Source of the DNA: Prevotella sp.
GTDB lineage: Bacteria > Bacteroidota > Bacteroidia > Bacteroidales > Bacteroidaceae
Direction of reading: 5' to 3'
Assembly (NCBI GenBank): GCA_017460515.1
Contig: JAFUAY010000033.1
Span: 35,108 to 99,107, forward strand
DNA: 64,000 bases
Position numbers and translations under genes: made by a program. A model generated the notes under the pieces. It saw only the letters and a program-made list of their open reading frames with translations. It did no database searches and was not told where the DNA came from. Positions 7,340 through 53,466 of this stretch are shown piece by piece (the first letter of the stretch is position 1; each line of letters opens with the position of its first letter).

Positions 7340-8965
7340 CTATTCAATACTGATAAGTTTGCTGTTGGTGATTTCAGGTACAGGAGTTGCCGTACCGTCT
7401 TTCACGTATCTCTGCAGATTACCATAGACAATGACTTCCTTGTCGACGGTTACCTTGTTGTCAACGGTGAAGTCAGCTCCGTCGATATACTTGCCGCGGT
7501 ACACTTTCAGTTCGTTTTCGCCGTCATCAGTGATAATGTAGTCAATGTTCTTATATTTTGTGATATTATCGTCTGTGGTGATGACCTGCTTTACCTTACC
7601 CTTGACGAACCAAGACTCAGCAGAGTTCTCGTTGTCTTTATCGAGGGCAGCAATAGCAGCCAGTGCCTCAGCAACAGTCTTTGGAGCATCGGCAGAGCCT
7701 ACATCCTCAGTGGGAGCAGGTTCTTCACTACTTTGTCCGTTGACAGAAACGATGTAGCAGCCCTGTGTGAACTCAGGTGTTTTGCCTCCGTAGTTAATAA
7801 GTTGTCCACAAACGAGAACCTTGTCGCCCTTCTTCACGAAGTTCTTGTCGGTAATCTTTGCTTTGTCAGGACCTGCAGCGCGATATACTGTCAACTGGTT
7901 GGCGCCGTCCTTCGTATCAGAGATAACGAGAGAAATGTTGCCATAAGTAGAGTTATAATCGCCAACCTCTACAACATAGCCAGTAGCATAATACTCCTGA
8001 GCGGTTGCTGTTGTTCCAGCCTCAATACATTTTTCCAGTGCAGCAGCCACGTTGAAGGGATCTTCGAGTGTACCTGTTCCACTCGGATTGATAACTTTTG
8101 GCTCGTAGGTTGAGGCCACCACATCATCGATGCTGCGGATAATCACCTCCCACTGGTCGCGATAGCGCTTGAAGATACCCGTTACGTTCACCTTGCCCTG
8201 AGGCAGTTTCATAGCTGCGAAGTCAGCATAGCCGCTGTTGAACATCTGAACGGTGGGCTGTTCGGTGAAGTACCATGAGGTGTTGCCTCCATCGACAGCG
8301 TAGGTAGAGTTTTCATTGTAAACGATGTTGGCACGCTTAGCAAAGCTGTAGCCCTTGCTGAAGGTGACGCCCACCAGTACGCCCAGTCGTCCGGCGTCAG
8401 CATCCAGGTCGAACTTGCCCATTCCGCTTCCCAGTGAGAACGTATCGGCCTTCACTTCCAGTTTTCTGCCTGTATAGGCGAAGTGGTCTTGCCACTGGTG
8501 GCGGCTTATGTTGCCGATGCTCTGTGCACCGTCGGTATTGGTGTAGGGCACACCGATGGCGGGACATTTCTCGCTGTGACCGATATAGAGACCGTCAAGG
8601 TCTACCAGTATCTCTGTGCCAATGGGCAGAATACCGCTCATGCCGCCCTGTGCTACCTTGATGAAGATGGCATCGGTAGAGTCCTGAATGGTAATCTCAT
8701 TATAGAGGTTGCCCTGGATATCATTACCAGTGACCACACCCTTGATCTGGGTAGCCTTGTTGATCTGTGTGAAGATCTTTGCCGAGTCGGTACCAAAGTA
8801 AGCCTTGTACTTGGTCTTCAACTGCTTGATGGTGGTGAGGTTTGACTCAACGATCTTGTCATTGCCCCATGCATTGGTAGTCATCGGGTCATCCCAGTCT
8901 TTGTTCATGCAGGCGGTCATGGTGCTGCATACAAGTGCTAAAAGCAGATATTGTATTTTCTTCAT
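7340..8965 (-). CDS. DUF5689 lipoprotein with two extra OB-fold repeats
   Basis: The start was set at 8965 because AAGGAGG lies 8 nt upstream, one of the few Shine-Dalgarno sequences in the window; an alternative ATG at 8971 is too close to it. The 541-residue product has a lipoprotein signal (STMTACMNKDWDD, with acidic residues after Cys). A DUF5689-type region follows (about residues 25-290: TQIKGVVTGNDIQGNLYNEITIQD, GISRHQW-like, FKRYRDQWEVIIRSIDDV), itself an OB-fold family. Two YhcR-type OB-folds come after it (about 300-415 and 425-540). DUF5689 lipoproteins are typically encoded next to TonB-dependent receptors, as here, where the receptor gene ends 19 bp upstream. Role is inferred as the surface partner of the receptor. 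Confidence 0.75.
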   Translation of the reverse strand: MKKIQYLLLALVCSTMTACMNKDWDDPMTTNAWGNDKIVESNLTTIKQLKTKYKAYFGTDSAKIFTQINKATQIKGVVTGNDIQGNLYNEITIQDSTDAIFIKVAQGGMSGILPIGTEILVDLDGLYIGHSEKCPAIGVPYTNTDGAQSIGNISRHQWQDHFAYTGRKLEVKADTFSLGSGMGKFDLDADAGRLGVLVGVTFSKGYSFAKRANIVYNENSTYAVDGGNTSWYFTEQPTVQMFNSGYADFAAMKLPQGKVNVTGIFKRYRDQWEVIIRSIDDVVASTYEPKVINPSGTGTLEDPFNVAAALEKCIEAGTTATAQEYYATGYVVEVGDYNSTYGNISLVISDTKDGANQLTVYRAAGPDKAKITDKNFVKKGDKVLVCGQLINYGGKTPEFTQGCYIVSVNGQSSEEPAPTEDVGSADAPKTVAEALAAIAALDKDNENSAESWFVKGKVKQVITTDDNITKYKNIDYIITDDGENELKVYRGKYIDGADFTVDNKVTVDKEVIVYGNLQRYVKDGTATPVPEITNSKLISIE

Positions 8966-8984: not shown

Positions 8985-11561
8985 TTAGAACTTATATGCA
9001 ATATTCAGCATGCCGTTGATGCCGTAAGCGTAGTACTTCTTCGGGTTGCGCGAGAAGGAGTAGGCGCGGCTCTTACCGCTGCTGGTGTAGTCGCTGCGGC
9101 TCTGCTCATAGCCACCCGTCACGATGTCACGGTTGTTCAGCACGTTGGTCAGTGAGAGGTTGATGCTCATAGAGCGTCCGTGCTTCAGCCAGAGGCTCTT
9201 GCCGATAGACAGGTCGAGCATGAAGCCGCCGTGTCCTTTCTCCTGTTCCAGTGCACTTGAGAGCACATTGCCGGCATTGTCGGTAACCGTCTCGCCGGCT
9301 GCCTTACGAGCCTTGATGGTCGACTCATAGCGATAGCAGGGAGAGTAGGAGAGGTAGATGCGGTCATAGTAGTTACCATTCAGGTCGATGAACCATCCGC
9401 CCTGGTGATAGCTGAGGATGAAGCTCAGTGCGGTGAGCGGTGTACCTGCCTCACGCATGTTCTTGTTCAGCACCAGCTCAGGCTTGTGGTTGTTGGCATC
9501 GTTATAGGTACCGCTGGTAGAACTCATGTACCATACGCGGGCATTGTTGGTATTCTTTGCCTCGCTGACAGTACCGATGGCCTTGAAGTCCAGTGCACTT
9601 GACAGTTTGAATTTCAAGCCCCACTCAATGCCGTAGTACTCTTTGTTGATGCCAGTCATAGACACGTATGAGAACGAGTTGATATCGTCGAAATAGAAGT
9701 TCTGCCACTCGGTAGCGTCCTTCACCTGACTGTAGTAGCCAGAGATGTTAGCCTTCAGCCAGGATGTCTGCAGCTGATAGCCTACCTCAGCGCTCAGCAC
9801 CTTCTCGTTCTTCAGGTCTACCACGAAGTCATTGTTGATCTCAGGCGATACGAAGGCAGTAGAGGCCTGTGGAGCCTTCAGCTCATAGCCTGCACCCAGT
9901 GTAAACGCGTTGCCTGCACCCAGGTTGACGGTGATGCCAGCCTTACCGCCAGCCTCGCCGAACTTACCCTTCTTGCTCTTGCCGTAAGAGTTGTCGGTGT
10001 CCATACCGCTCTTCATCATACCTTCGCGCTGCATCTCTATGCCAGCCACGCGTCCGCTGATGAATGAGTGAATACTTCCGCGGTCATATTTGAAGGTCAG
10101 CCAGCCGGCAGCCTTGTTCACGTAGATGTTGTAGTCATAGCCGAACTTGTCGCCTTCCTTCACCACACCGTTGGGATTGTTGACGTCATACTGCACCTGT
10201 GGGTCGTTCATGGAGTACTTACCCAGTGCGTAGGTGTTGATGTTATGGAATACGGTGGCGCCCAGCAGGTCCTCCATCGTCTGGTAGTGCATGCCTTTGT
10301 TGGTAGCCAGCTGAATGCCTGCGCTCAGTGAGGCATACTGGTTCAGCTCCTTGTTCAGGCTTGATGCGAAGGCCAGGTTCAGGTTGTTGTTGTTCTTGGC
10401 CTGGATGAAGTACATAGCGTCCTGACCATTGGCTGCGGCAGCGCGGTTGGCAGCATAGAGGCGGTCGAAGTCTATCTGACGGTCTGCCTTGTAACCACCC
10501 ATGATGGTACGGGCACGTAGCCAGTCGGCCTGGCACTGCTCCGTGCGCAGGTGTCCGAGTCCTTCACGTTCCCAAACATCATAGTAGCTTGAGGGCAGGT
10601 TCTTCCAGTAGTCGGGCTGGGGATTGTCAGCGTTGTTGTAGTTCAGCTTCGTGCTCTTGTAGATAGAGTAGCGACCGGTGAGGCTGGTGGTCAACTTCGT
10701 ATTGTCGTTGATGTTCCAGTCCCAAGTGGCCAGCAGCGTGGGAGCGAAGTCGGTGACAACGCGTGAGTTGCGCTTCTTGCCGTTCTGATAGCCCCAGTAG
10801 GGGTTATAGTAGCGGTCGTTGGCCAACCAGTAGCTCTCGTCGGTGGCAGCACCCTGTCCGGCACGCTCTGTGGGGTTACCCCATGTCACGATAGAGAAGT
10901 GGTGCTTGTCGCCCAGGAACTTCTCAGCACCCAGGAAGTAGGATATTGAGTTGTAGAATGTTCCCTCCACATAAGATGTGTTCATGTTGGCCCAACGGTA
11001 GGTGAGGTTGGCTGAGAATGCCCATCCGTCCTCTCTGACGCCTGAGTTGTAGGTGTACATGCCGCGGAAGGTGTAGTTACGATTGGCACCGCTGAGGGTC
11101 AGTCGCTGTCCGGTGGCGAAGTGTGACGGACGGAAGTTGTAGTTGTTCGAACCGCCCATTGCCGACATGCCGAAGGAGTTGTTCTCAAACGGTAGCGCAT
11201 TGTCTACATCGCGGGTCTGCTGGTTCAGTCCGCCCACGAGTGAGTAGCGGAACTGTCCCGTCTCCATGTCGTTCATCTGAACACCGTTGATGTAGATGTC
11301 GTTGTACTTTTGACTAAAAGCGCGATAGCGGAAGCGTACGGGACTGAACAGATATCCTACCTGTGAGGCATAGATATTGTTGTTCGAGTTGATGATAGTC
11401 ACGTTCTGCGACATATCCTCATCTTCTCCCAGCTGAGCTTCCGTGAAGGTGAAGGCCTGCTCGTCCAAGACGCCGACCGTAGAAAGCGAGTCGCTTTCCT
11501 GAGCCATAGCCGTCATCGACAGGCATAGTGCCATCAACACGAGTTTCAGCTTTTTGTTCAT
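8985..11561 (-). CDS. TonB-dependent outer-membrane receptor
   Basis: An 858-residue outer-membrane protein: signal peptide 1-20 (SMTAMAQ), a plug-like region (about 50-160, YASQVGYLFSPVRFRYRAF ... IYINGVQMND, then GMSAMGGSNNYNFRPS), then a long 22-stranded-barrel-type region rich in aromatic alternation and ending in the canonical terminal Phe (MLNIAYKF). It lacks the carboxypeptidase-like N-terminal domain of SusC proteins, and no SusD-like gene is nearby. Instead it is first in an operon with DUF5689/OB-fold lipoproteins. Substrate is unknown; the OB-fold partners make nucleic acid or a nucleotide-containing ligand a reasonable but unproven idea. Confidence 0.85.
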   Translation of the reverse strand: MNKKLKLVLMALCLSMTAMAQESDSLSTVGVLDEQAFTFTEAQLGEDEDMSQNVTIINSNNNIYASQVGYLFSPVRFRYRAFSQKYNDIYINGVQMNDMETGQFRYSLVGGLNQQTRDVDNALPFENNSFGMSAMGGSNNYNFRPSHFATGQRLTLSGANRNYTFRGMYTYNSGVREDGWAFSANLTYRWANMNTSYVEGTFYNSISYFLGAEKFLGDKHHFSIVTWGNPTERAGQGAATDESYWLANDRYYNPYWGYQNGKKRNSRVVTDFAPTLLATWDWNINDNTKLTTSLTGRYSIYKSTKLNYNNADNPQPDYWKNLPSSYYDVWEREGLGHLRTEQCQADWLRARTIMGGYKADRQIDFDRLYAANRAAAANGQDAMYFIQAKNNNNLNLAFASSLNKELNQYASLSAGIQLATNKGMHYQTMEDLLGATVFHNINTYALGKYSMNDPQVQYDVNNPNGVVKEGDKFGYDYNIYVNKAAGWLTFKYDRGSIHSFISGRVAGIEMQREGMMKSGMDTDNSYGKSKKGKFGEAGGKAGITVNLGAGNAFTLGAGYELKAPQASTAFVSPEINNDFVVDLKNEKVLSAEVGYQLQTSWLKANISGYYSQVKDATEWQNFYFDDINSFSYVSMTGINKEYYGIEWGLKFKLSSALDFKAIGTVSEAKNTNNARVWYMSSTSGTYNDANNHKPELVLNKNMREAGTPLTALSFILSYHQGGWFIDLNGNYYDRIYLSYSPCYRYESTIKARKAAGETVTDNAGNVLSSALEQEKGHGGFMLDLSIGKSLWLKHGRSMSINLSLTNVLNNRDIVTGGYEQSRSDYTSSGKSRAYSFSRNPKKYYAYGINGMLNIAYKF

Positions 11562-16244: not shown

Positions 16245-16294
16245 GTCATTTTTCTTCAAACTATGCTCATTGATTACAGAAAAATATATCGGTG

Positions 16295-16393
16295 TATTCG
16301 TAAACGCCATGTTTAGCTCCCCTAAACACCATGTTTAGCTCCCCTAAACTATATGATTACGAGTTGTAAACATGATGGTTATGGGGCGTAGTC
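16295..16393. repeat. 11-bp-phased degenerate repeat array (9 units)
   Basis: Between the divergent PgpA-like and inositol-phosphate synthase genes the sequence parses into 11-bp units: TATTCGTAAAC, GCCATGTTTAG, CTCCCCTAAAC, ACCATGTTTAG, CTCCCCTAAAC, TATATGATTAC, GAGTTGTAAAC, ATGATGGTTAT and so on. A 20-bp block (CATGTTTAGCTCCCCTAAAC) is exactly repeated at 16308 and 16330. CTAAAC...GTTTAG pairs make small palindromes. Same period as arrays near 26.9, 41.5, 47.4 and 53.3 kb. Confidence 0.75.
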
Positions 16394-16459
16394 AATAGAG
16401 TTTTTTAAAAAGAAACAGAAAAGCAATCCAACAAACGTATCATCTGTCGGGCAGCCCCC

Positions 16460-16609: not shown

Positions 16610-16640
16610 TTTGTGGTGAGCCAAATTTGCAGTACCTTTG
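16610..16640 (+). promoter_or_regulatory. Promoter of the inositol-phosphate synthase gene
   Basis: TTTG, a 19-bp spacer and TACCTTTG match the Bacteroidetes promoter at both boxes; the -7 box ends 23 bp before the ATG at 16664. Confidence 0.8.
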
Positions 16641-16663
16641 CGCTGTTTTTAAAAACTATTGAA

Positions 16664-17998
16664 ATGAAAAATACGAATGTTGTCCCAGCAGCAGGAAAAC
16701 TGGGTATCATGATAGTAGGCAACGGTGCAGTGGCCACCACCTTTATGACGGGTGTGCTGATGGCTCGCAAGGGACTGGCAAAGCCCGTGGGTTCAATGAC
16801 GCAGTATGACAAGATCCGCGTGGGTCGCGGTGAGGAGAAGCAGTATCTGAAGTATGCTGACATTGTGCCCATCGCCAACCTCAACGATATAGTGTTCGGT
16901 ACGTGGGATGTGTATCCGCAGAATGCTTACCAGGCAGCGATGTATGCCGAGGTGCTGAAGCCACAGGATATTGAGCCGGTGCGCGATGAGCTGGAGAAGA
17001 TTGTGCCCATGAAGGCCGCCTTCGACAAGGACTACGCCAAGCGACTGGATGGCTCTAATATAAAAGTCGCCTCCAACCCCTCTGAGGGAAAGGATATTCC
17101 TACCCGTTGGGAGATGATGGAGATGCTGCGTGAGGATATCCGACGCTTCAAGCAGGCGAACGGCTGTGAGCGCATCGTGGTGCTCTGGGCTGCCTCTACC
17201 GAGATCTACGTGCCCGTGGACGAGCAGGTGCACTACCGACTGGCTGACCTGGAGGCTGCGATGAAGGCCGATGACCGTGAGCATGTGGCTCCGTCGATGT
17301 GTTATGCCTATGCAGCCCTGAAGGAGGGTGCTCCCTTCGTGATGGGTGCTCCCAATACGACGGTGGATATCCCCGCAATGTGGGAACTGGCTGAGCAGAC
17401 GAAGATGCCCATTGCCGGCAAGGACTTCAAGACGGGACAGACGCTGGTGAAGAGTGGCTTTGCACCCATCATCGGAACCCGCTGTCTGGGTCTTGAGGGA
17501 TGGTTCTCGACCAATATACTGGGCAACCGCGACGGACTGGTGCTCGACGAGCCGCAGAACTTCCGCACGAAGGAGGTGTCGAAGCTGTCGACGCTGGAGA
17601 CCATCCTGAAGGCCGACGAGCAGCCCGACCTCTATACCGACTATTATCATAAGGTGCGCATCAACTATTATCCGCCACGCAATGATAACAAGGAGTCGTG
17701 GGACAATATCGACATCTACGGCTGGATGGGCTATCCCATGCAGATCAAGATCAACTTCCTCTGTCGTGACTCTATCCTGGCTGCTCCCGTCTGTCTGGAC
17801 CTCTGTCTGCTGATAGACCTGGCTGCACGCGCAGGCCGATACGGTACGCAGCGCTTCCTCTCGTTCTTCCTGAAGTCGCCCATGCACGACTATACCCAGG
17901 GCGAGGAAGCCGTCAACCACCTGTATCGCCAGCACACCATGCTGAAGAACGCCATCCGCGAGATGGGTGGCTATGAGGCTGACGAAGAGATAGACTAA
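16664..17998 (+). CDS. ino1: Myo-inositol-1-phosphate synthase
   Basis: The 444-residue product starts at MKNTNVVPAAGKLGIMIVG (16664), which fits the promoter just upstream. The NAD-binding GxGxxxT-type loop is VGNGAVATTFMTG (about residues 18-30). The conserved block NYYPPRNDNKESWDNIDI and the following MQIKINFLCRDSILAAP (about 325-365) are hallmarks of inositol-1-phosphate synthases, which convert glucose 6-phosphate to 1L-myo-inositol 1-phosphate with bound NAD. It is divergent from the PgpA/GtrA/phosphatidyltransferase/Aur1-like unit, and the set corresponds to the inositol-lipid locus known from Bacteroides. The DUF5686 gene follows 49 bp downstream. Confidence 0.92.
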   Translation: MKNTNVVPAAGKLGIMIVGNGAVATTFMTGVLMARKGLAKPVGSMTQYDKIRVGRGEEKQYLKYADIVPIANLNDIVFGTWDVYPQNAYQAAMYAEVLKPQDIEPVRDELEKIVPMKAAFDKDYAKRLDGSNIKVASNPSEGKDIPTRWEMMEMLREDIRRFKQANGCERIVVLWAASTEIYVPVDEQVHYRLADLEAAMKADDREHVAPSMCYAYAALKEGAPFVMGAPNTTVDIPAMWELAEQTKMPIAGKDFKTGQTLVKSGFAPIIGTRCLGLEGWFSTNILGNRDGLVLDEPQNFRTKEVSKLSTLETILKADEQPDLYTDYYHKVRINYYPPRNDNKESWDNIDIYGWMGYPMQIKINFLCRDSILAAPVCLDLCLLIDLAARAGRYGTQRFLSFFLKSPMHDYTQGEEAVNHLYRQHTMLKNAIREMGGYEADEEID

Positions 17999-18047
17999 AC
18001 AACGGCCGACGAAACAGCAGGCAAGACTTTTCAAGAAGCGAACCCCA

Positions 18048-20648
18048 TTGAGACGATTCACAGTATTCTTTTTAAGCCTTCTCCTGACGACGGCAACGGC
18101 ACTGGCACAGATAAGTGGTGTGGTACTGGATGCCGACGACGGGGAGCCCGTTCCCTATGCCAGCGTGGTGTATAAGGGTAACGACGTGGGCACGAAATGT
18201 GATGCTGAGGGGCGGTTCACCATCGGCCGGCATAACGGCTGGCGACTGACCGTCAGTACGGTGGGCTACCGCTCGCAGGTGATCAATGTCGGTCCGGCAA
18301 CGCCCGCCTCGATCACCATCCGACTGAAGGCCGAACAACAGGCGCTGCAGGAGGTGACGGTGAAGAGCAAGCGCAAGACCCGCTACAGCCGGAAGAACAA
18401 CCCTGCCGTAGAGTTGATGCGCAAGGTGATAGCCGCCAAGAAGCGCAACGACCTGAAAAAGAACGACTTCTACCAGTACACCAACTACCAGAAGATAGGA
18501 CTCGGACTCAACGACATCAATCCGCAGATGCTCGACAAGGGTATCTTCAAGAAATATCCCTGGCTGGTGAGTCAGGTGGAGGTGAGCCAGTATAACGACA
18601 AGCTGGTGCTGCCACTGACGGTCGACGAGACGGTGACGCGACAGATGTACCGTAAGGAGCCGCAGAAAGAGCGCTCCATCATCATGGGACAGAAGTCGTC
18701 GGGCGTCAACGACCTGTTTCAGACGGGCGACATACTGACCACCGTGATGCGCGACGTCTTTGCCGACGTGAACCTCTACGATGACTATATCCTCCTGTTC
18801 CGCCATAAGTTCAGCAGTCCGATAGGCCGCGATGCCATCCTGTTCTACCGCTACTATATCACCGACACCGTCTACGTGGGACAGGACCGCTGCATACACC
18901 TGGACTTCACGCCCAACAACCCGCAGGACTTCGGCTTCCGCGGACAGCTCTATGTGTTGGCCGACAGCAGTTATCAGGTGAAACGCTGTGAGCTGTCGCT
19001 GCCGCAGTCGAACGCCGTGAACTGGGTGGAGGGCTTCCAGTGCATGCAGGAGTTCACCCGTCAGGCCGACGGACAGTGGCTCCTCACCATCGATGACATG
19101 ATTGTGGAGCTGATGGCCACCGACTTCCTGGCACGCGCCATCATCACCCGTACCACCCGTATGAGCGACTTCGACTTCTCGCCCATACCCAACAGTAAGA
19201 TGCGAGGCGGCACACAGGAGGTGGAGGCCAACTCGTACAGGCGCAGCGATGAGTTCTGGGAACAGCACCGACAGGTGGAGTTCACCAAGAGCGAGCGCAA
19301 CATGGGCACCTTCCTCGACCATATCGAGCAGTTGGGCGGATTCAAATACGTCATCTTCGTGCTGAAGGCGGCCTTTGAGAACTATCTGGAGACCGGTTCG
19401 AGAGAGCATCCCAGCAAGTTTGACTACGGTCCCGTGAACACCACCATCTCGCAGAACTTCTACGACGGCTGGCGACTGCGCGTAGGCGGACAGACCACTG
19501 CCAACCTGAATCCCCACTGGTTCCTGAAGGGCTATTACGCACGCGGCATGAAGTCGAAGGAAGACTACTACCGTGCTGAGCTCACTTACTCGCTCGACCG
19601 CTGCAACTACCTGCCGCAGGAGTTCCCCATACGTCGCATCAGCTTCGCTTCACAGCGCGATGTGGCACTGCCCAGTGACAAGTTTATCGTGACCGACAAG
19701 GACAACGTGTTCTCATCGTTCAAGGTGCATGAGTTGGACAAGATGTTCCTGTATAACAGTCAGGCACTCAACTTCGACTATGAGACCCGTCAGCACGTGC
19801 GCTTCTCAGTGGGCCTGAAGACGGAGCACATCACGCCCATCGGCAACATAGCCTTCGAGCCGCTCTCAACGAAAGTCTCTCAACCTTCAACCCTCAACGC
19901 TCAACCCTCAACTGAAGTCTCTCAACCCTCAACTCTCAACGCTATTAGATACACCGAGTCAACCTTCGGCATCCGCATAGCCCCCAAGGAAAAATTCTTC
20001 AACACCAAGCAGCGCCGCCGCACGCTGAACAAGGATGCCTGGTATCTGAGCCTGCAGCACACACTGGGCCTGAACAACGTGCTGGGCGGAGAGTACAGCT
20101 ATAACTTCAGTGAGATGGAGTTCTACAAGCGAACGTGGCTGCCCATGAGCTGGGGCACGATGGATGTGACGCTGAAGGGTGGGGTACAGTGGAACCAGGT
20201 GCCTTATCCGCTGCTGATCATGCCACAGGCCAACCTCTCCTATATCGTGGACTACAACGCTTATTACATGATCAATAACATGGAGTTCCTCAACGACCGC
20301 TATGCTTCGCTGATGCTGAAGTGGGAACCGGGCGGAAAGATCCTGAACCGCATACCGCTGTTCAAGAAGCTGAAGTGGAGAGAGATAGGCGAGTTCAAGG
20401 TGCTCTGGGCCGGTCTTTCCCACAAGAACAACCCATACATGGCGGAGAATGCGGGCAGCAGCATCCTCATGCAGTTCCCGGAAGGCTGCTATATCATGGA
20501 CGGCAAACGGCCGTATATGGAGTATGCGGTGGGAGTGGGCAATATCCTGAACTTCCTTCAGATAGAGTATGTGCGCCGACTGAACTATCTGGATCTGCCT
20601 ACGGCGCAGAAACATGGCATACGCTTCGTGCTGCGTCCCGCCTTCTAA
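18048..20648 (+). CDS. DUF5686 and carboxypeptidase-regulatory-like outer-membrane protein
   Basis: 866 residues, probably starting from TTG at 18048 (MRRFTVFFLSLLLTTATALAQ, a good signal peptide; no better ATG is in frame). Residues 21-105 form a CarboxypepD-like beta domain (ISGVVLDADDGEPVPYASVVYKG), followed by the large DUF5686 region with many barrel-like amphipathic strands, ending in a terminal Phe (FVLRPAF). Such proteins are common in Bacteroidetes outer membranes; their function is unknown. Around residues 606-631 there is an insertion made of repeated TCAACCCTCAAC-type DNA (see the repeat entry) that gives a Ser/Pro/Thr-rich loop. It may be cotranscribed with the inositol-phosphate synthase gene. 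Confidence 0.8.
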   Translation: MRRFTVFFLSLLLTTATALAQISGVVLDADDGEPVPYASVVYKGNDVGTKCDAEGRFTIGRHNGWRLTVSTVGYRSQVINVGPATPASITIRLKAEQQALQEVTVKSKRKTRYSRKNNPAVELMRKVIAAKKRNDLKKNDFYQYTNYQKIGLGLNDINPQMLDKGIFKKYPWLVSQVEVSQYNDKLVLPLTVDETVTRQMYRKEPQKERSIIMGQKSSGVNDLFQTGDILTTVMRDVFADVNLYDDYILLFRHKFSSPIGRDAILFYRYYITDTVYVGQDRCIHLDFTPNNPQDFGFRGQLYVLADSSYQVKRCELSLPQSNAVNWVEGFQCMQEFTRQADGQWLLTIDDMIVELMATDFLARAIITRTTRMSDFDFSPIPNSKMRGGTQEVEANSYRRSDEFWEQHRQVEFTKSERNMGTFLDHIEQLGGFKYVIFVLKAAFENYLETGSREHPSKFDYGPVNTTISQNFYDGWRLRVGGQTTANLNPHWFLKGYYARGMKSKEDYYRAELTYSLDRCNYLPQEFPIRRISFASQRDVALPSDKFIVTDKDNVFSSFKVHELDKMFLYNSQALNFDYETRQHVRFSVGLKTEHITPIGNIAFEPLSTKVSQPSTLNAQPSTEVSQPSTLNAIRYTESTFGIRIAPKEKFFNTKQRRRTLNKDAWYLSLQHTLGLNNVLGGEYSYNFSEMEFYKRTWLPMSWGTMDVTLKGGVQWNQVPYPLLIMPQANLSYIVDYNAYYMINNMEFLNDRYASLMLKWEPGGKILNRIPLFKKLKWREIGEFKVLWAGLSHKNNPYMAENAGSSILMQFPEGCYIMDGKRPYMEYAVGVGNILNFLQIEYVRRLNYLDLPTAQKHGIRFVLRPAF
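19864..19941 (+). repeat. In-frame CTCAACCCTCAAC-type repeat inside the DUF5686 gene
   Basis: About 78 bp made of two copies of a block GAAGTCTCTCAACC(C/T)TCAA plus TCAACCCTCAAC variants. The length is a multiple of three and the frame stays open, adding about 26 residues (VSQPSTLNA appears twice). Similar CTCAACTCTACACT repeats stand in the spacer at 14668-14690. Flanking coding sequence does not share this composition. Confidence 0.7.
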
Positions 20649-26784: not shown

Positions 26785-26858
26785 ATAGTGTTGTTTTTAA
26801 ATATATAACAGAAAAATTCATACTTTATTGCATGTCTCCTTAATTTTCCTCAATGCTT

Positions 26859-26957
26859 CAGTTTTTTTCATTGAGAGTTTGCATCAAACTTACTGAGAGT
26901 TTGCGTCATTCTCCAAGAGTGTTTCAGTCATTCTCTGTTTTAATGCGCCTGACTGCA
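26859..26957. repeat. 11-bp-phased degenerate repeat array (9 units)
   Basis: In the divergent spacer the sequence parses as CAGTTTTTTTC, ATTGAGAGTTT, GCATCAAACTT, ACTGAGAGTTT, GCGTCATTCTC, CAAGAGTGTTT, CAGTCATTCTC, TGTTTTAATGC, GCCTGACTGCA. Units two steps apart (22 bp) are most alike, and AGTTTG/CAAACT pairs form palindromes. Nothing coding is seen. Confidence 0.65.
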
Positions 26958-27033
26958 CAACTTTTAATTAGTAAAAAAACTTATATATAATAATTGATAC
27001 GCAAATCCGTTATATCATTATACAATACACAAT

Positions 27034-41460: not shown

Positions 41461-41521
41461 TACAGTTTATTCCCTCGCGAGGTCTTACCCTCGTGAGGGA
41501 TTTTTGAGATATCTTCTGGCT

Positions 41522-41587
41522 ATCGTAGCAAGGTCGTTCCGCCGTCGTTCGTAGGTCGTAGCAAGGTCGTTCGTAGGTCGTTGCAAG
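41522..41587. repeat. 11-bp-phased repeat array (6 units)
   Basis: The units read ATCGTAGCAAG, GTCGTTCCGCC, GTCGTTCGTAG, GTCGTAGCAAG, GTCGTTCGTAG, GTCGTTGCAAG. This is the cleanest of the five 11-bp arrays in the window. It lies between the tmRNA tail duplication and the antitoxin stop. Confidence 0.85.
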
Positions 41588-41606: not shown

Positions 41607-41948
41607 TTAGAATACAGTTGCAATCTTACGGATTTTCTCCAAACGCTTCATGAAGGAGCGGTCCTGCTTCATTTTCTGCATATTGTAATCAGCCTGCAGG
41701 CCTATCCAAATGTTTGCATCTGTGCCGAGCGCAGCCTCCAACAACAACGCGTATTCTGTTGTTACAGGACGCTTACCGTTCAGAATCTCATTAAACACAG
41801 TATAGGACACACCCATCTGTTGGGCCAAGTCTTTTTGAGTAAGACCACGTGCCACAATCTCATCTTTTATCATCTCGCCCGGATGAATTAACATAGACGA
41901 CATCATGTTGTTTGCCGTTCTCTCTTTCACATAATCAATCTTAGCCAT
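41607..41948 (-). CDS. higA: HigA-type antitoxin
   Basis: 113 residues with a Cro/C1-type helix-turn-helix: MLIHPGEMIKDEIVARGLTQKDLAQQMGVSYTVFNEILNGKRPVT (about residues 19-64), the standard HigA/VapI signature, then ALGTDANIWIGLQADYNM. It lies 6 bp after the toxin gene, in the toxin-first order of higBA systems. HigA neutralises HigB and represses the operon. A shorter start at MLIHPGEM is possible. Confidence 0.85.
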   Translation of the reverse strand: MAKIDYVKERTANNMMSSMLIHPGEMIKDEIVARGLTQKDLAQQMGVSYTVFNEILNGKRPVTTEYALLLEAALGTDANIWIGLQADYNMQKMKQDRSFMKRLEKIRKIATVF

Positions 41949-41954
41949 ACCTTA

Positions 41955-42272
41955 TTATTTATAGTGATTTGACAATTCCATAATATTACATATCGTGACT
42001 ACAGGTTCTTCTTCCGACTCATCCAATGTGAACTCAATTCTATACTGATCGTTTGCCTTGATGGAATATCTGCCTTCTTTGTCGCCATGTAGTGCTTCAA
42101 AATGAAGAGACTTAAAAGGATACAAATCTTCTTTCCGCTTTGCCTGAATCAGATATTTAATTCTCTTTTGATACCCTCTGACTATTTGCGGCTGAAACCA
42201 AATCTTTTTTGATCCGGTCTCTCCTTTAGAATAGAGCTTCTCCAGGTAGTCTTCATTAAACGTTACAACCAT
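41955..42272 (-). CDS. higB: HigB/RelE-type toxin (type II)
   Basis: 105 residues from the ATG at 42272, 20 bp after a consensus promoter. The RelE-like fold is suggested by QIVRGYQKRIKYLIQAKRKEDLYPFKSLHFEALHGDKEGRYSIKANDQYRIEFTLDE, with basic residues and the YSIKANDQYRI strand as in HigB mRNA interferases that cut message on the ribosome. Paired with the HigA-type gene directly downstream. Confidence 0.82.
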   Translation of the reverse strand: MVVTFNEDYLEKLYSKGETGSKKIWFQPQIVRGYQKRIKYLIQAKRKEDLYPFKSLHFEALHGDKEGRYSIKANDQYRIEFTLDESEEEPVVTICNIMELSNHYK

Positions 42273-42292
42273 TATAGTTAATATTTTGGGTG

Positions 42293-42324
42293 CAAAGATA
42301 ATAAACAATCTACAAATTCGCAAA
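42293..42324 (-). promoter_or_regulatory. Promoter of the higBA pair
   Basis: Minus strand TTTG, a 20-bp spacer and TATCTTTG; both boxes match the Bacteroidetes consensus. The -7 box ends 20 bp before the toxin ATG. Confidence 0.8.
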
Positions 42325-42381
42325 AAATCGAATTTCTTTTTCGTCATTTGATTTATTTTTTATCCAAAATGCACAAAAAAA

Positions 42382-47186: not shown

Positions 47187-47560
47187 CTGCCAAGAGAATT
47201 GCCAAGGAGCACAAAAGGAACACTAAAGGAGGACTAAAGGAACCCTCTTCTTACTCTCTTCTTGGAGTCTTCTTGCCATACCGAAACTCTACCGAAGGTA
47301 TCTCGAACCTCTCGGCTCGCTCTATCCTCGACCTATGATACGCTTACCGAACTCATATCGGGCACTAATTGATCTCAGTCTGCAAGGGTAGGATATAGAG
47401 AGAGAAGAATTGGCGATGCCATACTTCAGGCTGCTTCTAGGCTGCTTCTAAACAGCTTCTAGCCATACTCCAGCCATACTCACGAGTATGCTTAGAGTAT
47501 GGCTAGAGTATGGCTAGAGTAAGCTTAGAGTATGCTTAGAGTATGGCTAGCGTATACAAA
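47187..47560. repeat. Long 11-bp-phased degenerate array (34 units) with internal inversion
   Basis: In this gene-free spacer (46974-47562) the sequence keeps an 11-bp phase for 374 bp. Early units: ATTGCCAAGGA, GCACAAAAGGA, ACACTAAAGGA, GGACTAAAGGA, ACCCTCTTCTT, ACTCTCTTCTT, GGAGTCTTCTT, GCCATACCGAA, ACTCTACCGAA. Late units: GGCTGCTTCTA twice, GCCATACTCCA, then GAGTATGCTTA, GAGTATGGCTA twice. The change of orientation near 47482 makes GCCATACTC and GAGTATGGC face each other. It ends 2 bp before the stop of the LruC gene. Confidence 0.8.
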
Positions 47561-47562
47561 AA

Positions 47563-49719
47563 TTACTTTCCGAAAGGATGCAGATACCAGTCGGCATGGG
47601 CAGCGCCGTTGGATGTGGCCCAAGGCAGGAAGTCTGGATAGAGCTCACTGATCTTGCGCTTCTCGTTGGCACGCTCCAGTAGGGTCTCCTTGAAACTGCT
47701 GATGCTGACGCCTTCAAGATAGAAAGCGAAGGGATAGTCACCGCTACGAACGAAATACTTGCCCTCAGCAGGTACCGACATGTCGTCTTCAGTGCCAAAG
47801 AAACTGGTAATCATTCTGTTCGTAGGAGCTTCGTAGGGGAGATGTACTTCCCAGCGACCTTCTGACATCGTGCGGAAGATGAAGGGCTTCACAACAGCTA
47901 CGTTATTAAGCTTGGTGAATCCGTTCCTATAGTTGATCTCAATAATATAGGTGGTACCGATCTCTGCCTTTACATCGTTAGTGAGCAAGTAGGTCTTGCC
48001 ATCAACCTCAAAATTGACTTCAGTCGTGTCTTTGGTAGCGGGATTGACCTTTTTCATGACGATGCTGGAAACAGGCTCTTTGGTCTCGATGGTAGCAGCG
48101 AGGCCAGTCTTCAGGTTGACGATGTTCTGATAGGTGGTCAGAGAGTAGATTTCCTGACGAATCTTATAGTCCTGCTTGCCCACGGTGACAGAATAGGTCT
48201 TCTCGCGAGTAACCTCGGCCATCACGTCATTCATGTCGTAGTCGCCCTTTGAAGGCCATAGGTCTTCGAAAGCATAGACACCTGTTGACGAGGTCTTCTT
48301 GTCTTCAACAAGAGGAAGTTTTGAGAAAGCATTGGCAGGCTTCAGCGCCAGTACGATATCGTCGTAGTCAAGGTCGTTGCAGGCGTCCTCAAAGCCTACG
48401 ATAGCATATTCAATACCATCTTCGTTCTTATAGGCGAACTTTGCTGTACGGCTCGAACCATCGGGATTCTGAATCTTGCAGTCATCCTTTTTGAGGCCGT
48501 TAGTGTTGCAGTAAGACAAGCCATCGGTAGAGGCGGCCCATACGTTATACTGTCTGGACAGTGTAGCTTCATGGTAGCGGTCTAAGCCGTTATAGCTGTT
48601 GAAGAACTTCTTTCCGTCACGAGTAGCCTGCATACCCCATCCGTTAGACTTCATGATAAAGCCGATTTTTGTACCCTTGGGGAACTTGGAAGTAGCTCCG
48701 CTCAAATCACCATTGGCGATATTGGGATAGTACATCAGCTTGACAACATCACCACGCTCCAATGCAATGTTTCCATAGAAATTGGGATTCTTACACCAGT
48801 CACGGCGCCATTTGCCGTCCTGGGTGTTGGGGAACAGCATGATAATGTTGAGGTCCTTCAGGCTGGTAGGCTTGTTGGCATCATTATAATAGAAATAACC
48901 CAGCGTGTTGTTCCAGCAGGTCATGCTACCCAGGAACGTAGCAGAAATCTCAGACTCACGCTCTACGGTAAGGTCGGCCTGGATGCGATACTCTTCGCGA
49001 CAGGTCTGATTGGCTACCAAAGCGTTTGCAACTGTTTCATAGAGACCTTCCATCTCTTCGTCAGAGAAAATCAGACGGTCATCAGCAGTAGCCTTGTCAA
49101 GCAGGTAGTTGGGACGACCACTTTCCATATCCCAGGAACCGAGGGGAGTGAACCAGTCTTTGTACACCTGATTTCCGGTATTGGCACCAGTGGTGACGTC
49201 AACCTCGTATGAGAGCTGATAGAGATAGTCCAACTGATCGGTCTGGGCTGCTCTGTTCAGACGGGCAGCACGTCTTGACTCACTGCCTTCATAGTTTGTA
49301 GCAACTATTTTAGCCTCGCCATAGCTGACCTTGGCATTGATCAGATTGTCAGTAATCATGAAGTTGCCCGTAACAACATATAAGTCCTGAGCATAAGAGG
49401 GCAGACAGATTTTCTCGCTGAACTTACCCTTGGTATCTGTGTATGCCTCGAAAATAGGGGTGATGCCCTCCTTGAGAGAAATAGATTCATCAGTTCCTTC
49501 GTAAGGATTCTCGCTGTACACACTGAAGAAAACAGGACCGTAGCTCTTGAATGCTGAATAGTCAACACTCAGGTTTACGCTCTGAATAGTTGCAAAATCA
49601 AATGAGTTGGCTGTCACCTGGGGCTTGGCAGCTTCGGCTGCATCAGCATCAAAAACTTCTTTGTCTTTACAAGAAGAAACAAGTGAAGCGATAGCTAGAA
49701 AAAGAACAATTCTTTTCAT
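47563..49719 (-). CDS. LruC-domain surface lipoprotein
   Basis: 718 residues with lipobox Cys at about residue 17 (SLVSSCKDKEVFDAD; acidic residues after Cys suggest surface export). The DUF4114-like segment YAIVGFEDACNDLDYDDIVLAL (about 435-457) and the LruC hallmark VYAFEDLWPSKGDYDMNDVMAEV (about 478-500) are clear, followed by a DUF4842-type beta region to the C-terminus. LruC is a Leptospira outer-membrane lipoprotein; the Bacteroidales relatives have no known role. It ends next to the 11-bp array. A -7-like TATTTTTG lies about 40 bp upstream without a good -33 box. Confidence 0.82.
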   Translation of the reverse strand: MKRIVLFLAIASLVSSCKDKEVFDADAAEAAKPQVTANSFDFATIQSVNLSVDYSAFKSYGPVFFSVYSENPYEGTDESISLKEGITPIFEAYTDTKGKFSEKICLPSYAQDLYVVTGNFMITDNLINAKVSYGEAKIVATNYEGSESRRAARLNRAAQTDQLDYLYQLSYEVDVTTGANTGNQVYKDWFTPLGSWDMESGRPNYLLDKATADDRLIFSDEEMEGLYETVANALVANQTCREEYRIQADLTVERESEISATFLGSMTCWNNTLGYFYYNDANKPTSLKDLNIIMLFPNTQDGKWRRDWCKNPNFYGNIALERGDVVKLMYYPNIANGDLSGATSKFPKGTKIGFIMKSNGWGMQATRDGKKFFNSYNGLDRYHEATLSRQYNVWAASTDGLSYCNTNGLKKDDCKIQNPDGSSRTAKFAYKNEDGIEYAIVGFEDACNDLDYDDIVLALKPANAFSKLPLVEDKKTSSTGVYAFEDLWPSKGDYDMNDVMAEVTREKTYSVTVGKQDYKIRQEIYSLTTYQNIVNLKTGLAATIETKEPVSSIVMKKVNPATKDTTEVNFEVDGKTYLLTNDVKAEIGTTYIIEINYRNGFTKLNNVAVVKPFIFRTMSEGRWEVHLPYEAPTNRMITSFFGTEDDMSVPAEGKYFVRSGDYPFAFYLEGVSISSFKETLLERANEKRKISELYPDFLPWATSNGAAHADWYLHPFGK

Positions 49720-53161: not shown

Positions 53162-53223
53162 AAAATGCTCCACACTTTACTGAAAAAGCCGATAGACAAA
53201 GGATTTCAGTGTGGAGCATTTTT
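53162..53223 (+). terminator. Terminator of the esterase/Mfa2 unit
   Basis: AAATGCTCCACACT pairs with AGTGTGGAGCATTT, with a ~31-nt loop, followed by a T-run. The stem is perfect over 14 bp. Confidence 0.8.
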
Positions 53224-53234
53224 GGGGATTGCTA

Positions 53235-53466
53235 TGAGCAAAGCCTAAGTTTGCCCAGGGCAAAACCAGGCTTTGCCCTAAGTGATTTTAGGCTTTGCCC
53301 TGAGTGATCTTAGGCTTTACTCTAAGCGATCCTAGGTTTCTCGTTGACTGATCTTAGGCTTTGCTAACTACCATGTTTGCAATGTCCAATCATCATGTTT
53401 GCAATGACTAAACACCATAGTAAGGCATCGTAAACATGGTGTTTAGACCTCATAAGTCTATGAGTT
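53235..53466. repeat. 11/22-bp-phased degenerate array (21 units)
   Basis: The gene-free spacer between convergent genes parses in 11-bp steps. The core has four 22-bp units (53268-53355) of the form AGGCTTTGCCCTAAGTGATTTT, followed by a fifth partial one. The array begins with inverted units (TGAGCAAAGCC, TTTGCCC...GGGCAAA) and ends with CATGTTTGCAATG-type units and TAAACATGGTGTTTAG, which is the complement of a 16-mer in the array at 16.3 kb. Confidence 0.8.

Follow-up and report, generated by a model that had tools for sequence, protein, structure and literature searches.

Tandem arrays of 22-bp dyadic units in Prevotella intergenic spacers, and an 11-bp array beside an LruC-domain gene

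The window analysed here, a stretch of 64,000 nucleotides from a Prevotella genome (contig JAFUAY010000033.1, assembly GCA_017460515.1), contains a gene for an LruC-domain protein (47563–49719, minus strand; TIGR04456, E 7.5e-32), the 3′ end of which adjoins a 374-bp tandem array at 47187–47560; the array is flanked on its other side by an ORF without a family match. Lag-11 identity over the array is 0.551 (z 12.7); identity is likewise raised at lags 22, 33 and 44, and each of the four values is reached by 0 of 1000 dinucleotide shuffles. None of the remaining lags from 3 to 45 exceeds z 1.72. The 11-bp periodicity reported here in a preliminary description is thus real. That description also held that a single 11-bp phase is kept through 34 units, which was not borne out. 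In the left block (47187–47362), lag-11 identity in 66-bp windows weakens rightward from 0.61 to 0.47, and TRF reports period 11 at 47204–47243. The period is undetectable in the inter-block stretch (47363–47417): the 66-bp windows 47341–47406 and 47363–47428 show lag-11 identities of 0.36 and 0.29, with other lags equally good there. To the right of this stretch lag-11 identity recovers to 0.50–0.73; in the right block (47418–47560) it is 0.59–0.73 in windows from 47407, and TRF reports periods of 11, 22 and 33 at 47484–47555. Because identity is lost over 47341–47428, the phase cannot be traced across the gap by similarity; the array is thus made of two blocks, with no support for a continuous phase.

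The right block also contains the orientation flip that had been placed near 47482, in the form of an inverted repeat at 47418–47547 with two arms (47418–47481 and 47484–47547) of 64 nt each, 70% complementary and 2 nt apart. The large cruciform proposed for the array is possible in the right block, but nowhere else in it. As RNA, 47187–47560 folds with z −3.35 on the minus strand and −4.64 on the plus strand, and 0 of 100 shuffles folded as low on either strand. Adjacent 11-mers are more alike than distant ones, as the preliminary description had it, with identities of 0.55 at one unit, 0.38 at three and 0.26–0.36 at seven or more units; this decay with distance fits local copying as the mode of growth of this array. 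An in-phase dyad was not found in it (p 0.36–0.80), and a search of its own genome (about 65% complete) for a second copy of the 374 bp returned only the array itself and its own inverted part. We treat the array as a putative member of the family described below, with head-to-tail units and no dyads; since an in-phase dyad is absent, what places it there is only its pitch, its location and a similar two-block layout. The safest statement is that it is a two-block 11-bp tandem array, grown via local duplication, in the same genomic context as the other arrays.

Four more spacers of the window were said to have an 11-bp period. All four hold arrays, but at the detection threshold used period 11 recurs only at 41493–41587, together with period 22 (dyad not significant, p 0.12–0.13), in a spacer bordered by the tmRNA gene on one side and a higA-like gene on the other. 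The spacers at 16271–16411, 26835–26939 and 53208–53459 show period 22 only. The first belongs to a 22-bp dyad array (16258–16408) that adjoins pgpA and holds a core recurrent in its own genome (lag-22 score 46/66; dyad p 0.03), the second to a 22-bp array between divergent genes (26837–26959; score 40/66; dyad not significant, p 0.105), and the third to a 22-bp array between convergent genes (53211–53462; score 50/66; dyad not significant, p 0.07), the spacer of which matches another array spacer of its own genome (L036) over 159 bp at 76.7%. The proposed window-wide, helically phased family is therefore real, but 11 bp is its minority period and its general form is a 22-bp dyad unit. At Rfam gathering scores the window matches the tmRNA and nothing else, so that the arrays match no described RNA family, and no plasmid match was found. 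Three other features of the window are recorded here: a pair of HigA-like antitoxin and HigB-like toxin genes (41607–42347, minus strand) adjoins the tmRNA-side array; a 7/14-bp tandem array (19847–19960) lies within an ORF (18048–20648, plus strand) whose N-terminal part matches SusC/RagA; and an ORF at 16793–18061 (minus strand), which has in-frame stops in many relatives, is probably antisense to the gene at 16613–17998.

The pitch of 22 bp dominates in the window's own genome (G000) and in two other species of the same genus (G016 and G026). Among 202 spacers of G000, which make up 43,246 bp out of 696,858 sampled bases, arrays number 25 at lag 22, 19 at lag 44, 11 at lag 66 and 4 at lag 11, and lag 22 gives 25 arrays in 202 spacers of G016 and 10 in 52 spacers of G026. 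These lag-22 arrays occupy 23/202, 24/202 and 10/52 spacers of G000, G016 and G026, respectively. Over 20 shuffles of the sampled spacers, the mean number of lag-22 arrays is 0, 0.1 and 0 in the same order, and lags from 15 to 66 that are not multiples of 11 yield on average 0.11, 0.53 and 0.36 arrays (maximum 1, 4 and 6). Lag 23 is outside the eight highest lags in G000 and G016 spacers (one lag-23 array in G000 vs. 25 at lag 22), and its z in G026 is 5.2 vs. 16.4 for lag 22. The unit sequences of G016 and G026 differ from those of G000, while the 22-bp clock is the same. Genes, which the preliminary description expected to lack the period, score low at lag 22 and high at lag 21, the pattern expected for coding sequence. 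Neither of the two outcomes named there as contrary to the claim was found, since shuffles produce almost no arrays and other spacers are periodic. The original observation is thus partly confirmed: it is largely real and its scale goes beyond that claimed, but the unit was wrongly given as 11 bp. The suggestion of a binding array for a partition protein is unlikely, as arrays occur in about one spacer in nine (23/202 in G000, 24/202 in G016). A parC-like plasmid partition site was rejected for the focal array on the same ground and because its flanks are not a partition operon.

The distribution of this clock among relatives is uneven. Eight further genomes of the same genus, sampled at 20 to 80 kb each, divide into four with one or more lag-22 arrays and four with none. 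Pooled spacers from 20 other genera of the family (one genome each, 34.8 kb) contain five lag-22 arrays, with three at each of the next lags, and a lag-22 z of just 2.1; 30 tmRNA loci of the family contain six arrays in five loci, one of which (L161) belongs to the window's genus. In 20 genomes from other families of the order (27.7 kb), one array was found at lag 22 and four at lag 23. The 22-bp clock is clear in three species and patchy within the genus, and the data for its occurrence beyond the genus are suggestive. Two local cases with other pitches were also observed. In G053, a genome from another family of the order, locus L085 has two 23-bp arrays of one unit family within 20 kb (8201–8330 and 9604–9790), which is the BrickBuilt pitch (see below) in another family, and at locus L071 of G009 the spacers are strongly periodic at 7 bp rather than 22.

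The 22-bp units are dyad-symmetric. When the dyad centre was picked in one half of an array and tested in the other, G000 gave an in-phase match of 0.370 vs. 0.265 and G016 one of 0.393 vs. 0.251; the match was raised in 42/50 and 43/50 array halves, respectively. Taken singly, only 12/25 arrays in each of these genomes pass p 0.05 against column permutations. In both species the dyad axes recur every 11 bp. The geometry is non-uniform, the axis being centred on a base in 21/25 arrays of G000, 25/25 of G016 and 3/11 of G026. G016 clearly shows a contact pattern in which two bases are fixed and one is free; G000 does not, so that no generality is claimed for it. The arrays of G026 have near-identical middle units and decayed edges.

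The units of G016 are described by one palindromic motif, which has 78 exact matches in that genome vs. 0 for the reversed control; seven other genomes have 0 to 2 matches, as do their reversed controls. Among 398 genomes of the genus, at least one match occurs in 195 and at least seven copies in 10, the highest counts being 78 (G016), 30, 21, 18, 14, 11, 9, 7, 7 and 7. Sites found with a G016 weight matrix are spaced by 22 bp (90 pairs), 44 bp (64), 66 bp (34) and 88 bp (11), with 4 pairs at the next spacing, and 156 of the 244 sites lie in spacers, the other 88 being in ORFs from a crude caller that also accepts false ORFs. A weight matrix for the window's own genome was dropped, as it drifted into coding sequence. 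The G016 units contain conserved and free positions, and neighbouring units agree at the free positions at 0.386 vs. 0.366 predicted from the columns. Unit differences within an element may be ancestral, and the free-position result alone is therefore no proof of selection. In the G016 dyad, positions two and beyond show no covariation (z −2.1 to +1.0), and next to the axis complementarity is avoided (0.113 vs. 0.323 and 0.144 vs. 0.471; z −5.6 and −6.6). This combination favours a protein that reads duplex DNA and disfavours paired RNA. The bases flanking each G016 axis are thus non-complementary by preference, making each axis asymmetric.

Array spacers share sequence with other spacers more often than spacers overall: 20/24 vs. 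53/202 in G016, 18/23 vs. 31/202 in G000, and 5/10 vs. 7/52 in G026. After masking of each array together with the adjoining 22 bp to left and right, and with length-matched spacers as the comparison, the counts become 12 vs. 6 of 24 in G016, 6 vs. 4 of 23 in G000 and 0 vs. 0 of 10 in G026, in a test that has little power at 65–70% identity in short pieces. As masking lowers these counts, arrays that match other arrays account for much of the sharing, and elements find no support in G026. This control cut back an earlier version of the argument, in which nearly all arrays lay inside dispersed elements.

Some arrays do lie in dispersed copies. Two copies in G016 match without gaps over 379 bp at 86%, and a 381-bp element used as query finds at least 40 places in G016 (40 of 145 candidates were scored), several of them end to end. 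The same query gives three weak matches in G442 and none in seven other genomes searched, including the relative G024. The window's own genome holds a pair with the layout array, core, array that shows 92.6% identity over 391 bp, and a 481-bp query there has 37 matches, of which seven beyond the close pair fall in the non-array core. No clear terminal inverted repeats or target duplications were seen in the one element pair inspected by eye. An initial reading of G016, in which unrelated arrays had converged on a single site, gave way once some of its arrays turned out to lie in dispersed copies. Dispersal thus has support in two species (G000 and G016), where it concerns some of the arrays, with an element of about 380 bp.

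One array-bearing stretch is absent from the orthologous site in a relative. The presumed murD-ftsW spacer, its genes named by inference from sequence, is 855 bp long with a 22-bp array in G016 and 41 bp long in G024, with flanks that are 71–72% alike. In 11 other species, a long open frame at this place comes within 23–89 bases of the end of a stretch of about 1 kb that extends into the beginning of ftsW, and in one species (L249) this end is weakly periodic at lag 22. The best DNA match of one G016 spacer region in the 398 genomes is 70% alike and falls in the gene part. In the presumed murD-ftsW spacer of G016, a 66-bp tandem repeat of about five copies (L191, 12452–12821) was observed next to the 22-bp array, 66 being 3 × 22.

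Substitutions were compared between copies of the G016 element, using the seven pairs above an alignment score cut among the 105 possible pairs of 15 copies. The array has 88/573 substitutions vs. 383/1695 in the element flank, and within the array fixed positions have 40/324 and free positions 48/249. The array diverges more slowly than the flank in six of the seven pairs, in one of them barely, and one pair shows no array advantage; having copies in common, the pairs lack independence, and the slower divergence could also be a product of gene conversion. Among spacers of classifiable orientation (187/202 in G000, 188/202 in G016), no preference for convergent, divergent or tandem spacers is consistent between genomes, with arrays in 6/31 and 4/41 convergent spacers, respectively, and no gene family is common to the flanks, the largest cluster comprising 4 of 113 flanking proteins.

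The preliminary description knew of no named family of this kind, which misses BrickBuilt of Porphyromonas gingivalis, the closest described element. BrickBuilt comprises 19 intergenic copies of an imperfect 23-nt tandem array between a non-repeated leader and tail, with small terminal inverted repeats, and 22-nt repeats are mentioned as reported in P. gingivalis strain W83 (PMC4596501). Like the present arrays in part, BrickBuilt is dispersed, intergenic and species-restricted, with a unit made of conserved and non-conserved positions (PMC4596501). Restriction to one or a few species also holds for the present arrays, as seen from the motif counts and from the absence of the G016 element from G024. 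There are also differences: the unit is 22 or 11 bp here and not 23 nt, unlike unit families share one pitch, units are dyadic with axes every 11 bp in two species, no terminal inverted repeats were seen in the pair inspected, and dispersal is shown only for some arrays, with embedding observed in a G016 family and a G000 pair. Pitch, dyads, the many unit families per pitch and the absence of visible terminal repeats make the present arrays a variant of this kind and not BrickBuilt itself; the 22-bp class is distinct from it in pitch. In the open-access literature, no description of 11- or 22-bp arrays in Prevotella or Bacteroidetes was found, and BrickBuilt was the only relevant entry.

Other known systems resemble the arrays in single respects. 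The ParR/parC iterons, omega heptads, and BldC and MetJ arrays consist of short tandem sites of about one helical turn, direct or inverted, that are bound by a cooperative dimer. These are single loci or defined operators, whereas the arrays described here are dispersed over the genome, have species-specific sequence and would be bound by a protein that is itself a prediction. REP and BIME sequences are dispersed intergenic palindromes of alternating orientation without a fixed 22-bp pitch; in contrast, the present arrays are fixed at 22 bp, and the covariation expected for hairpins was not seen in G016.

With moderate confidence, we favour the explanation that the arrays are part of non-autonomous intergenic repeats that resemble BrickBuilt, with a pitch that a candidate dimeric DNA-binding protein would set; the masked, length-matched control lowered this confidence from somewhat better than even to about even. 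Such repeats would originate and spread independently in each species, each with its tandem units in a single block or in two, at a fixed pitch of 22 bp (two helical turns) or, in a few cases, 11 bp (one turn). The arrays may extend through local tandem duplication, and their pitch could be kept by a dimeric protein that occupies adjacent units along the same helical face; this protein would be either chromosomal or a trans-acting transposase or recombinase. Some of the findings would also be expected of in-place minisatellites that arise by replication slippage, without function or mobility and with an incidental pitch: identity decays with distance in the focal array (0.55 to about 0.30), G026 arrays have near-identical middles and decayed edges, and masked sharing is 0/10 in G026 and barely above length-matched spacers in G000. 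Slippage does not readily account for unlike units that keep exactly 22 bp in several species with other lags near zero, for the dyad symmetry of the units, for adjacent G016 units that scarcely exceed the column prediction at free positions, or for arrays that diverge more slowly than their flanks in most copy pairs, and we consider it a doubtful though live alternative. Composition or chance is refuted by both shuffle tests, on the focal array and on all sampled spacers, and its probability is negligible.

Two further alternatives retain a function without mobility. The palindromic G016 motif in its 22-bp register, with its 78 matches, empty reversed control and conserved and free positions that do not covary across the dyad, would also fit a chromosomal regulator or a nucleoid protein whose operator arrays are kept in place. 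The motif, however, is species-patchy (at least seven copies in only 10/398 genomes), the G016 arrays accompany a larger dispersed sequence, and spacer orientation has no consistent promoter bias, all of which makes this origin distinctly improbable. RNA hairpins in strings, serving to terminate or to stabilise transcripts, would explain the dyad units and the folding of the focal region beyond its shuffles, but G016 sites lack covariation and avoid complementarity next to the axis, convergent spacers are not consistently preferred, and the tmRNA is the sole Rfam match in the window. The hairpin model is rejected for G016 on the lack of covariation, and overall we give it very little credence. 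A broader version of the protein reading is also conceivable, although we regard it as unlikely: a cooperative dimeric protein would coat intergenic DNA throughout the family, with one protomer per 11 bp and a two-fold axis per helical turn, its sequence specificity changing from species to species at a constant pitch, and mobile elements would spread the landing arrays.

If such a coating protein exists, it would represent a fast-evolving pairing of DNA and protein, comparable to the co-evolution of eukaryotic satellites and their binding proteins. A single pitch over unlike sequences points to a protein geometry that searches could target, with the species-specific motifs as ready baits. The 22-bp class is a broader case alongside BrickBuilt, and its arrays shape a sizeable share of the non-coding DNA in a major genus of the gut and rumen.
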